A stretch of DNA of 40,330 nucleotides, taken from the NCBI GenBank assembly GCA_025459285.1, contig JALOQY010000003.1:1-40330 (forward strand). The letters run 5' to 3'. Below the pieces are notes generated by a model. The model did no database searches. It was not told the origin of the DNA and saw only the letters and a program-made list of their open reading frames with translations. Below are positions 3,160 through 37,114 of the stretch, one piece after another (the stretch's first letter is position 1; each line of letters starts with the position of its first letter). Origin of the DNA: Planctomycetota bacterium. Lineage in GTDB: Bacteria > Planctomycetota > JAJSAM01. The position numbers were made by a program, and so were the translations under genes.

Positions 3160-3226
3160 GTTATCAGCGGCCCGTCGGGGCCGAGGACGATCTCTGCGGT
3201 GCGACCCTCTTTCTCCTTCAGGTTGC
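3160..3226 (+). repeat. R1 palindromic 3'-end element, copy 2 (decayed arms)
   Basis: CCGTTATCAGCGGCCCGTCGGGGCCGAGGACGATCTCTGCGGTGCGACCCTCTTTCTCCTTCAGGTTGCC aligns to the other copies; approximate ends. Confidence 0.65.
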
Positions 3227-7300: not shown

Positions 7301-7552
7301 ATGCGACGCTTCTGCATCGCCCTGGCCGGCGCTCTCTTCCTCGCGGGCTGCATGAGTGCGCCCACGCCCCTGACGGAGAACATGTTCGAGGACGATGGTC
7401 TGCCCGAGCGGCCCGATCAGTTCCTCGGGAACATCCGGCACGCGTTCTCGGACCACGTGGATGACTGCGTGGTGGGCCTCTCGTTCACCTCGCGATCCAT
7501 CTCCCGCGGCATCGCCGCGGACTGGGAGCGCTTCTCGCGGACGCTGGATTAG
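7301..7552 (+). CDS. Small putative lipoprotein
   Basis: MRRFCIALAGALFLAGC lipobox; 83 aa; TAG stop lies in the R1 element arm. Confidence 0.65.
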   Translation: MRRFCIALAGALFLAGCMSAPTPLTENMFEDDGLPERPDQFLGNIRHAFSDHVDDCVVGLSFTSRSISRGIAADWERFSRTLD

Positions 7553-7612
7553 CCGCCTGTCGGGGCCAGGGACGATCTCTGCGGTGCGACCCTTTACCCC
7601 GACGGGCTGCTA
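7550..7612 (+). repeat. R1 palindromic 3'-end element, copy 3 (best preserved)
   Basis: TAGC-C-GCCTGTCGGGG ... CCCCGACGGGC-T-GCTA, near-perfect 16-bp arms around core CCAGGGACGATCTCTGCGGTGCGACCCTTTA. Confidence 0.85.
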
Positions 7613-17074: not shown

Positions 17075-19271
17075 CTAGTCTCGATTTCCACAGGAAGCCA
17101 ATCGCTAACGCCCGGTCCCGGGTGGCATGCCTGCCGTCCGCCGCACATTCGTCCCACTGCGGCCTGACCGCCGCTGCCCACGCGCATCTCGGGGGGTCAC
17201 CGCATTCCAGCGACGGTTTTGACCACGCGGTTCGTTGCCTCCAGCGTTGCCATAATACGGTACTGATGCTGTAGAGTGAAGGGGTCAGATGCTTCCTGGC
17301 TCGCGCCTCATCTTGCCGCTATCGCTGGGCTTGGCCCTGCGGAGGGCGCGTGGACATAGCACAAGGTGATGGGGTTCGTCCGATTTTCTCCACAACCGGC
17401 TTGACTTTCCTTCTATATGTGGCATTATGTGGGTGTGGCATACAGTCATGGAAAGCAGATAACAAACGCCTCCCCCGAAGCTCGGTTCTTCCTCTCTCCC
17501 GACAAAGCCCTCCACCGCCAGTACGAAGCGCTCCGCGCCTACTTCGTCGAGGACCTTTCCTCTCCCGATGTCGCCCGGCGCTTCGGCTACTCCCCGGGCG
17601 CCTTCCGGGTCCTTTGCACCCGCTTCCGCCAGGAACCCGAGAAGTCCGACCGGTTCTTTCGGGCCGTGCAGCGCGGACCGCAGTCCTCCCCCCTCCGGGA
17701 CAAGCTCCGAGAGACGATCATCGCCCTCCGGAAGAAGAACCTCTCCGTCTACGACATCCAGAGGGAACTGGGGGAGGCCGGCAAGGAAGTCAGCATCAAC
17801 TTCCTTGCCATCCTCCTGCGGGAAGAGGGCTTCGCCCGCTTGCCCCGCCGGCGAGACGACGAACGGCCGGAGATCGTCAGGCCGGCGAGGGCCGCCGTCG
17901 CCGACGTGAGGGAGCTGGATCCGTCTCCCCGGTCTTTCCATACCTCCTTCGCCGGGCTGTTCCTCTTCGCCCACCTCCTCGAGGGGTTCGACCTCGGGGC
18001 CCTCGCTACCGGAGCGGACCTGCCGGGATCCTCGATGATCCCCGGAGAGCAGGCACTCCGCTGCGCTCTGGCCTTGAAGCTCGTGGGTACCGAGAGGAAG
18101 AGCCACATCATGAGCCACGTCCTCGACCAGGGGCTCGCCCTCTTCGCCGGGCTCAATGCCATCCCGAAGCGCTCCTGGTTCGCCACCTACAGCTCGCGTC
18201 TCGGAAGCCTGAAACTCAAGAAGCTCATGGATCTCTGGTTCGACCAGGCTCAGGCTGCCGGAGTCAGGCGAAGCGGGTCGTTCGACCTCGACTTCCACTC
18301 CGTCCCGGCCCACACCGAGAAGGAGCCCCTCGACACGAGCTACGTCTCGCAGCGGAGCCGCAGGGAGAAGTCCGTCCTCGTCTTCCTCGCCCGTGATGCA
18401 GAGGAGCGGATCCTCTGCTACTCCAACGCCGCGATCCCGAAGTCCCGGCGGGCCGGCGAGATCATCGAGTTCGCGGAGTTCTACAAGAAGCGCACCGGCA
18501 GCTACCCGCGGGAACTCGTTTTCGACTCACAGCTCACCACGTACCCCTCGCTCGACTGGCTGAACAAGAACGGGATCACCTTCCTGACCCTCCGCCGCCG
18601 CACCAGGAAGATGCTCAGCTGGCTCTACTCGCTTCCTCCGTCGATGTGGAAGAAGGTGACCCTCGAAGCCCTGACGAGGAAGTACCGTACGCCGAAGGTT
18701 CTCGAGGAAATGGTGGGCCTCAAGGGCTACGAGGGGGAGGTCCGCCAACTCTCCATCGTGGATCTCGGACACGAGGAGCCCACGGTCCTTCTCACGAACA
18801 ACCGCAAGGAAGGGCCGCCGGCGCTCATCACTCGCTACGCGCATCGGATGCTCATAGAGAACGGGATCGCCGAGGCCATCCACTTCTTCCATTTGGATGC
18901 CCTGAGCTCGATGGTGGAACTGAAGGTCGACTTCGACCTGCAGATCACCCTCATGGGAAGCACGCTCTACCGGATGCTGGCCTGCCGGTTGCCGGAGAAC
19001 TACCAGCGGGCCCACGCCAAAACGATCTTCGAGAACCTCCTCGCAGTGGGAGGCAAGGTGGACGTCGGCGAGCAGCGCGTCGTGGTGACGCTCGACCACA
19101 AGGCGCACAACCCGATCCTCGCCGAGACCGGACTTCTCGACCGCCCGACCCGGATGCCCTGGTTCTACGGACGGGAACTCGTGCTCCGGCTCAAGTAGGT
19201 AACCCCACCATCCGGCTCATCCACCGCGCTCAATCGTTAGCGCAATCCGGTAGCGTGGAAATCGAGGCTAG
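17075..19271 (+). mobile_element. Insertion sequence with imperfect TIRs and CTAG flanks
   Basis: Left TAGTCTCGATTTCCAC (17076-17091) plus CGCTAACG (17103-17110); right reverse complement TAGCCTCGATTTCCAC (19270-19255) plus CGCTAACG (19242-19235); CTAG at 17075-17078 and 19268-19271. Confidence 0.65.
17417..19198 (+). CDS. DDE-type transposase with N-terminal HTH region
   Basis: SSPDVARRFGYSPGAFRVLCTRFR HTH-like; GSFDLDFHSVPAH, ELVFDSQLTTY and RMLIENGIAEAIHFFHLDALSSM consistent with D, D, E positions. True start may be downstream of 17417. Confidence 0.85.
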   Translation: MWHYVGVAYSHGKQITNASPEARFFLSPDKALHRQYEALRAYFVEDLSSPDVARRFGYSPGAFRVLCTRFRQEPEKSDRFFRAVQRGPQSSPLRDKLRETIIALRKKNLSVYDIQRELGEAGKEVSINFLAILLREEGFARLPRRRDDERPEIVRPARAAVADVRELDPSPRSFHTSFAGLFLFAHLLEGFDLGALATGADLPGSSMIPGEQALRCALALKLVGTERKSHIMSHVLDQGLALFAGLNAIPKRSWFATYSSRLGSLKLKKLMDLWFDQAQAAGVRRSGSFDLDFHSVPAHTEKEPLDTSYVSQRSRREKSVLVFLARDAEERILCYSNAAIPKSRRAGEIIEFAEFYKKRTGSYPRELVFDSQLTTYPSLDWLNKNGITFLTLRRRTRKMLSWLYSLPPSMWKKVTLEALTRKYRTPKVLEEMVGLKGYEGEVRQLSIVDLGHEEPTVLLTNNRKEGPPALITRYAHRMLIENGIAEAIHFFHLDALSSMVELKVDFDLQITLMGSTLYRMLACRLPENYQRAHAKTIFENLLAVGGKVDVGEQRVVVTLDHKAHNPILAETGLLDRPTRMPWFYGRELVLRLK

Positions 19272-19282
19272 CCCGTCTCTCA

Positions 19283-19470
19283 CCGGGCTTGTACTACACA
19301 CCCTCCAAGTCCCCGCGCCGCTCGCAGAATTCGCGTGAGCGAGCGCCGCAGGCGCCCGCCGTCGCAGGCCGCGAGGAGGGGGAGGCCGCGTGCAGCGCGG
19401 CCGACGTGGAGGAGGATCTGCCTTCCCCGCCATCAAGACAGTGCGGGCGCGGCCGTCGCAAACCGGGTTG
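19283..19470 (-). repeat. R2 structured intergenic repeat, copy A
   Basis: Minus strand CAACCCGGTTTGCGACGG...GGCAGATCCTCC...GGCGGGCGCCTGCGGCGCTCGCTCACGCGAATTCTGCGAGCGGC...TAGTACAAGCCCGG aligns end to end with 29766-29950. Confidence 0.8.
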
Positions 19471-19534
19471 CGGGTTGGAAGTGACCTCCCGACCGAACGA
19501 GCCGGAGAGAGCGACGGCGGCGATGATCACGCTC

Positions 19535-29097: not shown

Positions 29098-29382
29098 ATG
29101 GCCCTTCGACGAAACCTGCACGTGCTGCTCGATGACGACCTCCACCGTCGACTCCACGGTGTGGCGGAGCGGAAGGGGGAGCCCGCGACGGTGCTGGCCC
29201 GGGAAGCGATCCGCCGCTGGGTGGAGGACGCGGAGCGCGCCGCCCTCCGGGAGGAGATCTCGGCCTATGCCGCCGCCGTGGCGGGCACGGAAATGGACCT
29301 CGACGCGGATCTGGAGACGGCGGCGACGGAGTCCCTGCATGATGAGACGGAAAGCCCGCCCGCACGCCGGAGGAGGCAGTGA
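29098..29382 (+). CDS. Ribbon-helix-helix antitoxin-like protein
   Basis: RRNLHVLLDDDLHRRLHGVAERKGEPATVLAREAIRRWVEDAE; overlaps the MazF-like start (GTGA). Confidence 0.8.
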   Translation: MALRRNLHVLLDDDLHRRLHGVAERKGEPATVLAREAIRRWVEDAERAALREEISAYAAAVAGTEMDLDADLETAATESLHDETESPPARRRRQ

Positions 29383-29723
29383 GAAGGGGGGATGTCTGGT
29401 GGGCGGCGCTCGTCCCGCGCTCGGGATCCGAACAGCGTGGGGAGCGGCCGGTCATCGTGGTCTCCCACGACGGATTCAACGAGACGCCCGGGTGGCGGTC
29501 CGTCGTGGTGGTTCCCCTCACGACCTCCGCGCGCCGGGCCCGGGGCCGGACGGCGGTGGCTCTTCCGGCGGGGGCGGGGGGACTGCCGGCCGACAGCACG
29601 GCGCTCTGCCACCAGGTCACCACGCTCGACCGGACGAAGCTGACGCGGTGTCTGGGGAGCCTCGACGGGGAGTGGATGGCCGGTATCGGTCGCGGGCTGC
29701 GGGCGGCGCTCGACCTGGGGTGA
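29379..29723 (+). CDS. MazF/PemK-family toxin
   Basis: MRRGDVWWAALVPRSGSEQRGERPVIVVSHDGFN...VVVVPLTTS...ADSTALCHQVTTLDRTKL. Confidence 0.9.
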   Translation: MRRGDVWWAALVPRSGSEQRGERPVIVVSHDGFNETPGWRSVVVVPLTTSARRARGRTAVALPAGAGGLPADSTALCHQVTTLDRTKLTRCLGSLDGEWMAGIGRGLRAALDLG

Positions 29724-29765
29724 ACGACGCGGATCTCCGGCCCGTTCACGGCGCGGGCACGCCCT

Positions 29766-29950
29766 CAACCCGGTGGCGACGGGCGGCGCCCGCGATGTCC
29801 ATGATGCGGGGGAGGCAGATCCTCCCCCGCGTCGGGGGCCAGCGGCCCCCTCGCCCTCCTCGCCGCCTGCGGCGGCGGGCGCCTTCGGCGCTCGCTCTCG
29901 CGAAATCCGCGAGCGGCTCGAAGATTCCGAAGGTCTGCAGTACATCCCGG
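29766..29950 (+). repeat. R2 structured intergenic repeat, copy B
   Basis: CAACCCGGTGGCGACGG...GGGGGAGGCAGATCCTCCCCC...GGGGGCCAGCGGCCCCC...GGCGCCTTCGGCGCTCGCTCTCGCGAAATCCGCGAGCGGC...CAGTACATCCCGG. Confidence 0.8.
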
Positions 29951-35482: not shown

Positions 35483-35557
35483 CGCCCGCTCCGCGCCCCC
35501 CGAAACCGCTTCTCCCTACCGGGCCCCCCGCCCCCGGAGCGACCGGGGAGAATTGCC

Positions 35558-35596
35558 CCGGAAGAATTGCTCAGAGCAGATTTCCCAGCCCTGGGA
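35558..35596 (+). repeat. Direct repeat R3, copy 1
   Basis: CCGGAAGAATTGCTCAGAGCAGATTTCCCAGCCCTGGGA. Confidence 0.75.
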
Positions 35597-37062: not shown

Positions 37063-37075
37063 CGGCGCGCCAGGC

Positions 37076-37114
37076 CCGGAAGAATTGCTCTGAGCAGATC
37101 TTCCACCCCTGGGA
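37076..37114 (+). repeat. Direct repeat R3, copy 2
   Basis: CCGGAAGAATTGCTCTGAGCAGATCTTCCACCCCTGGGA. Confidence 0.75.

Follow-up and report, generated by a model that had tools for sequence, protein, structure and literature searches.

The window, as we call the whole analysed stretch of 40,330 nucleotides from a Planctomycetota bacterium, contains two hairpins with different letters at what appears to be one and the same place of a repeat, which raises the question of what has kept the stems paired while their sequences changed. A first-pass annotation of this DNA had described two perfect 7-bp stems at the same aligned position between conserved neighbouring sequences and had argued for selection on pairing rather than recent duplication. 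The descriptive part was confirmed. Both stems (H3 in the following) are present (Table 1), whereby the H3 of copy A reads GGCCGCG-TGCAG-CGCGGCC on the + strand, and they occupy the matching place in two mutually inverted intergenic copies, A and B, of one repeat, which are identical at 139 of 184 aligned bases (76%). The flanks of H3, GGCAGATCCTCC on one side and GCGCCT(T/G)CGGCGCTCGCTC on the other, are kept in both. The contrast with duplication did not hold, since A and B are dispersed old copies of a family with about 100 matches in the own genome. Two copies alone are weak proof of kept pairing, and therefore further copies and lineages were brought into the analysis.

At a G+C content of about 70%, two unrelated stems could readily arise at one place by coincidence, and perfect stems of at least 6 bp are indeed found in 3.7% of the 30-mers of the window. 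However, they occur in 45% of 62 related H3 segments and in 3.4% of composition-shuffled ones, and stems of at least 7 bp in 26%, compared to 0.7% after shuffling and 1.1% of the window 30-mers. Furthermore, the covariation described below was reached by none of 500 shuffles. The stem frequency and the shuffle tests thus refute a GC-rich coincidence, which we regard as practically negligible.

The repeat is a non-coding element of ~195 bp that comprises, from 5' to 3' in the orientation of copy B, the hairpins H1, H2 and H3, a spacer, H4a, H4b, H5 and a 3' end. A core of 91 nt consists of H2, H3, the spacer TCCCCCTCCTCG, H4a and H4b. The element ends were placed where the likeness among ~38 copies stops. 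The sequence GTAG sits 4 nt from the 3' end and, within the element, does not adjoin a palindrome. Matches to the 3' terminal motif number 13 in the own genome (G000), 18 in G001 and 43 in G002, and the reversed control gave none. An alternative pairing of the left arm of H2 with CCTCCCCC of the spacer was rejected, as it is absent from G001, where the spacer reads GACCCCC. As to the neighbourhood, a PemK/MazF-like toxin gene (positions 29379-29723; PF02452, E 9e-27) ends just upstream of copy B. A 593-aa open reading frame at 17417-19198, which has a weak DDE transposase match under the curated cut-off (PF13701, E 8e-5), stops ~90 bp before copy A, and the G+C content is lowered (~63%) around it at 16-19 kb.

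Table 1. Positions of the two repeat copies and their parts in the window (CM, covariance model).
Feature	Position	Strand	Sequence or remark
Copy A	19290..19475	-	older; H1 5' arm lost or replaced; CM match 19289-19484, E 1.5e-26
H4b + H4a, copy A	19341..19372	-	
H3, copy A (hairpin in question)	19384..19402	-	GGCCGCG-CTGCA-CGCGGCC, perfect 7-bp stem
H2, copy A	19406..19430	-	decayed, GCGGGGAAGG-CAGAT-CCTCCTCCAC
Copy B	29747..29944	+	full-length, 198 bp, CACGGCGCGGGC ... GCAGTACA; CM match 29746-29945, E 2e-41
H1 terminal hairpin, copy B	29748..29798	+	
H2, copy B	29806..29830	+	GCGGGGGAGG-CAGAT-CCTCCCCCGC
H3, copy B (hairpin in question)	29834..29850	+	GGGGGCC-AGC-GGCCCCC, perfect 7-bp stem
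H4a, copy B	29862..29876	+	GCCGCC-TGC-GGCGGC; C-G/G-C and C-G/T-A swaps between lineages
H4b, copy B	29877..29893	+	GGGCGCC-TTC-GGCGCTC
H5, copy B	29894..29914	+	
3' terminal motif, copy B	29918..29944	+	consensus GCGAAGATTnnGAAnGTCAGTAGTACA; common to three genera

The element is dispersed, sharply bounded and modular. In the own genome, a 5.0-Mb draft of 534 contigs with the window as contig C7, it was located at ~40 places by BLAST, and the covariance model of the full element yielded 105 matches, some of which are partial or represent the opposite strand of a palindrome. The likeness among ~38 full copies breaks off at one common base on each side, beyond which their flanks are unrelated. 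Immediately before the left end there is a mild preference for T (19 of 37 copies of this frame, f1). No target duplication of 2-5 bp was detected in 37 f1 copies at offsets up to 3, and the aligned f1 ends CACAGC..GTAGTACA show no clear inverted repeats. Most copies are intergenic, and in the own genome the four possible arrangements to neighbouring genes occur 13, 9, 9 and 9 times according to a rough home-made gene caller, which argues against a role that is tied to one gene orientation. H1 is also present on its own in the genome as a sharply bounded palindrome of ~48 bp. About twelve copies carry an extra hairpin block of ~60 nt between H2 and H3, and one (L040) a tandem duplication in the same interval. 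Insertions, duplications and deletions also affect H3 itself (L030, L040), and in a relative (G135) it can be cleanly lost between two CCTCCCCC stretches (L246, L259). H3 thus occupies the site at which the element varies most. A look-alike of the extra block (GTGCGACGATCGCGGGCTCCCCCGGAGCCCGCTCC) was seen in another repeat context at two further loci of the own genome (L178, L179).

A search of the phylum, which covered 294 and then 392 genomes, revealed a rare and patchy occurrence of the element or its core, the latter being present in 5 of the 392 genomes from four families. The sister genus G001 gave 67 matches to the full-element covariance model. A third genus of the same family (G002) harbors dozens of elements of ~114 bp with the same two ends and other internal hairpins, and one copy (L321) is shrunk to the two ends (42 nt). 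In G135, G313 and G328, which belong to three other families, the 91-nt core is located within frames of other ends, and therefore the core is a cargo common to several mobile frames. The frame of G313 carries inverted repeats of 11 bp (GGCGTGGTTCA), and three copies are flanked by target duplications of 8 bp (0, 1 and 1 mismatches), which identifies this frame as a transposon, so that at least one frame has transposed. G135 has two frames with TATA-type terminal inverted repeats, whereby alpha copies adjoin beta ends, and the G328 frame contains an H1 hairpin that resembles the one of the own genome, with one A-T/T-A pair swapped. True copies were also found in the planctomycete MAG GMC4.metabat2.66; the rest of this exact-pattern contig scan gave mostly chance matches. 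Matches of single-sequence queries in G003, G009 and similar genomes were rejected, as the inspected ones are GC-rich, mostly coding-looking and not the element. No match to the element was obtained in plasmids or phages, and the H3 motif had no exact counterpart in viral contigs. In G001 (contig C22, L303), two elements seem to be joined in tandem (GTCAGTAGTACAGCGCGGGC), with CA/ACA shared by the end and the start.

Whether pairing is kept was assessed in three alignments, in each of which two-sided, pair-keeping changes were counted against shuffles that ignore the relatedness of the sequences. Within the own lineage (alignment A1, with 37 copies of two sister genera), 8 such cells were counted in H3, compared to 1.3 +/- 1.0 (0/500 shuffles). 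A MAFFT alignment across lineages (A2; 54 sequences; H3, H4a and H4b) gave 37 cells (9.2 +/- 2.2 in shuffles) and 5 pairs (3.3 +/- 0.7 in shuffles). In an alignment fitted by covariance model (A3; 85 sequences from five genomes), which is structure-biased by construction, 12 of the 27 core pairs have two-sided changes, compared to 6.0 +/- 1.1 in shuffles (0/500). The number of such cells is 101, where shuffles gave 25.3 +/- 3.6 and slid controls no more than 24; A2 agrees with A3 in direction, more weakly. The changes are well illustrated by H4a, which occurs as GCCGCC-TGC-GGCGGC, GGCGCC-TGATG-GGCGCC and GGCGCT-CGATA-AGCGCC, and in G328 as GCCGCT-TGATG-AGCGGC. These data support that base pairing is kept between lineages while the letters change, and for H3 the annotation was right in this respect, within the own lineage as well as across lineages.

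A different picture was obtained for the individual copies. On trees that were built without the helix being counted, and for which support is weak on ~195 bp, H3 underwent 7 two-sided and 4 one-sided changes that keep pairing and 9 that break it, compared to 2, 40 and 94, respectively, in the other helices together. Hence, unlike H3, most stems are decaying within the copies. The proposed selection on pairing at the A and B loci is not supported, as changes in the other helices break pairing about twice as often as they keep it (94 against 42). The annotation itself had named changes that break pairing as often as they keep it as the outcome that would speak against its reading; this is what the other helices show, and H3, with 9 broken against 11 kept, comes out near even.

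One rival reading would be that transcripts of neighbouring sequence include the repeat and that a folded RNA, acting for example in message stabilisation or attenuation, is selected, so that compensatory changes keep RNA stems. The cross-lineage covariation is strong, although by itself it does not tell RNA from DNA, and none of 200 shuffles folds as well as copy B (z -2.95). Copy A, however, folds no better than its shuffles (z -0.42), the element is oriented at random to genes, most helices are decaying in the own genome, and no Rfam family matches the element; at the gathering threshold only a tRNA was detected between positions 18800 and 30600. Selection on an RNA strand should favor G-U over A-C among one-sided changes. 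A mild excess of this kind is seen for the full element in A1 (56 vs 35, p = 0.035), but not for the core (22 G-U vs 30 A-C, p = 0.33), and RNA-level selection is thus unsupported. We consider an RNA function unlikely. Hairpins kept as DNA in active lineages, arm-templated correction or an exchange of hairpins between copies fit better than RNA selection at each locus. The latter two could also act without any selection on pairing, if copying of one arm onto the other by template switching, or recombinational exchange of hairpins, made the two-sided changes. In line with this, the two-sided changes of H3 appear without intermediates, the GACC/GGTC type arises four times on the tree built without H3, the core has 99 two-sided cells vs 52 one-sided transitions, and H3 is subject to the insertions, duplications and deletions mentioned above. 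Arm correction should, however, also hit the equally short H2, H4a and H4b, which lack covariation within the genome, and support for the trees is weak at ~195 bp. Such a purely mutational origin remains a serious minority candidate.

The element could also be of the REP/BIME type and depend on a RAYT (Y1 HUH) transposase for its movement. This would agree with the palindromes, the GTAG within the 3' end, the missing target duplication, the single Y1_Tnp gene of the own genome (C321) and the GTAG repeats that have been reported from Planctomycetes (PMC3733652). Against this, GTAG lies away from the foot of any palindrome, C321 as the sole Y1_Tnp contig is absent among the element matches listed, and Y1_Tnp occurs in relatives that do not have the element. 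Moreover, the search for Y1_Tnp was negative in G135 (96% complete) and in G313, both of which have many core copies, and RAYT was rejected as a general mobiliser on account of these two element-rich genomes. We regard this origin as improbable. The gene on C321 (L165, 1330-2520) encodes a 396-aa Y1/HUH transposase-like protein, and open reading frame translations on both sides of it share a GDVRTFSPF-like stretch, perhaps end repeats of its own.

The explanation that we favor, and hold to be probable, is that A and B are old insertions of a non-autonomous, modular, MITE/BOX-like mobile repeat, whose active lineages keep DNA hairpins and whose landed copies decay. The frame, consisting of the H1 terminal hairpin and the conserved 27-nt 3' end, would probably be recognised by a transposase or recombinase supplied in trans, and CACAGCGCGG and GTCAGTAGTACA would be the expected flanks of the gene for the mobilising enzyme. 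No autonomous partner was found at the inspected loci with located 3' ends in G000, G001 and G002, which are draft assemblies. The tight hairpins of the interior would be a cargo, which may be lost or enlarged and which unrelated frames can carry. Active lineages would keep these hairpins as structures, probably since folding as single-stranded DNA is required of the element, or else since one arm is copied onto the other; in either case two-sided changes would build up between lineages and subfamilies, and a copy that has landed would decay like neutral sequence. Modularity, dispersal with sharp ends, the covariation between lineages and the transposition of one frame (that of G313) are observed here, and transposition of the f1 frame in the own genome, the enzyme and a constraint acting on DNA are deduced. 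More tentatively, and with somewhat less than even chances in our estimation, the core may be a transferable multi-hairpin DNA cassette that passes among unrelated-ended transposable elements of distant planctomycete families, whereby both arms are replaced concertedly and the carrier gains a spreading advantage. The family offers a clear testable case of a hairpin cargo common to unrelated mobile-element frames, and a case of pairing kept by element lineages while single copies decay. It also cautions that compensatory changes between two repeat copies of the same genome do not prove RNA-level selection there.

Among known systems, REP/BIME sequences of the GTAG superfamily resemble the element as many-copy intergenic palindromes, and H1 occurs alone. 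REP subfamilies with alternative complementary stem residues have been described (PMC3733652), and compensatory stems in dispersed repeats are thus not new in kind. However, REPs measure 20-40 bp and have GTAG beside the stem, whereas the element comprises six hairpins over ~195 bp, and neither the matches listed nor G135 and G313 revealed a link between it and a RAYT gene. The nearest precedent is BOX of streptococci (boxA-boxB-boxC, in S. suis also boxE/boxF), whose modular, dispersed, tightly folded intergenic repeats have fixed end modules and a variable interior. To our knowledge, the BOX sequence is unrelated to that of the element. The hosts differ as well, and the core of the element crosses bacterial families in frames of differing end types. 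The same internal module in different end frames is found in the element, too; in S. suis, the same boxB module has been reported in two end frames, and covariation, unlike here, is not described in the consulted part of that paper (PMC3049150). The MITEs of bacterial insertion sequences are likewise small, geneless, hairpin-rich and present in many copies, and the G313 frame matches them in its inverted repeats and target duplications. Terminal inverted repeats are present in the G313 and G135 frames but not in the f1 frame of the window, which also lacks a target duplication. As far as we searched the open-access literature, this family and its core are new, and so is the presence of one core in differently ended frames across distant planctomycete families.

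Besides the element, a separate and unrelated dispersed repeat family with CCGTCGGGGCC..GACGATCTC / CCGACAGGCTG motifs is present in the window at 3163-3208 and 7548-7593 as well as at L179, L339 and L335. Finally, a 40-nt direct repeat (CCCGGAAGAATTGCTC..) with 90% identity occurs at positions 35557-35596 and 37075-37114 of the window.
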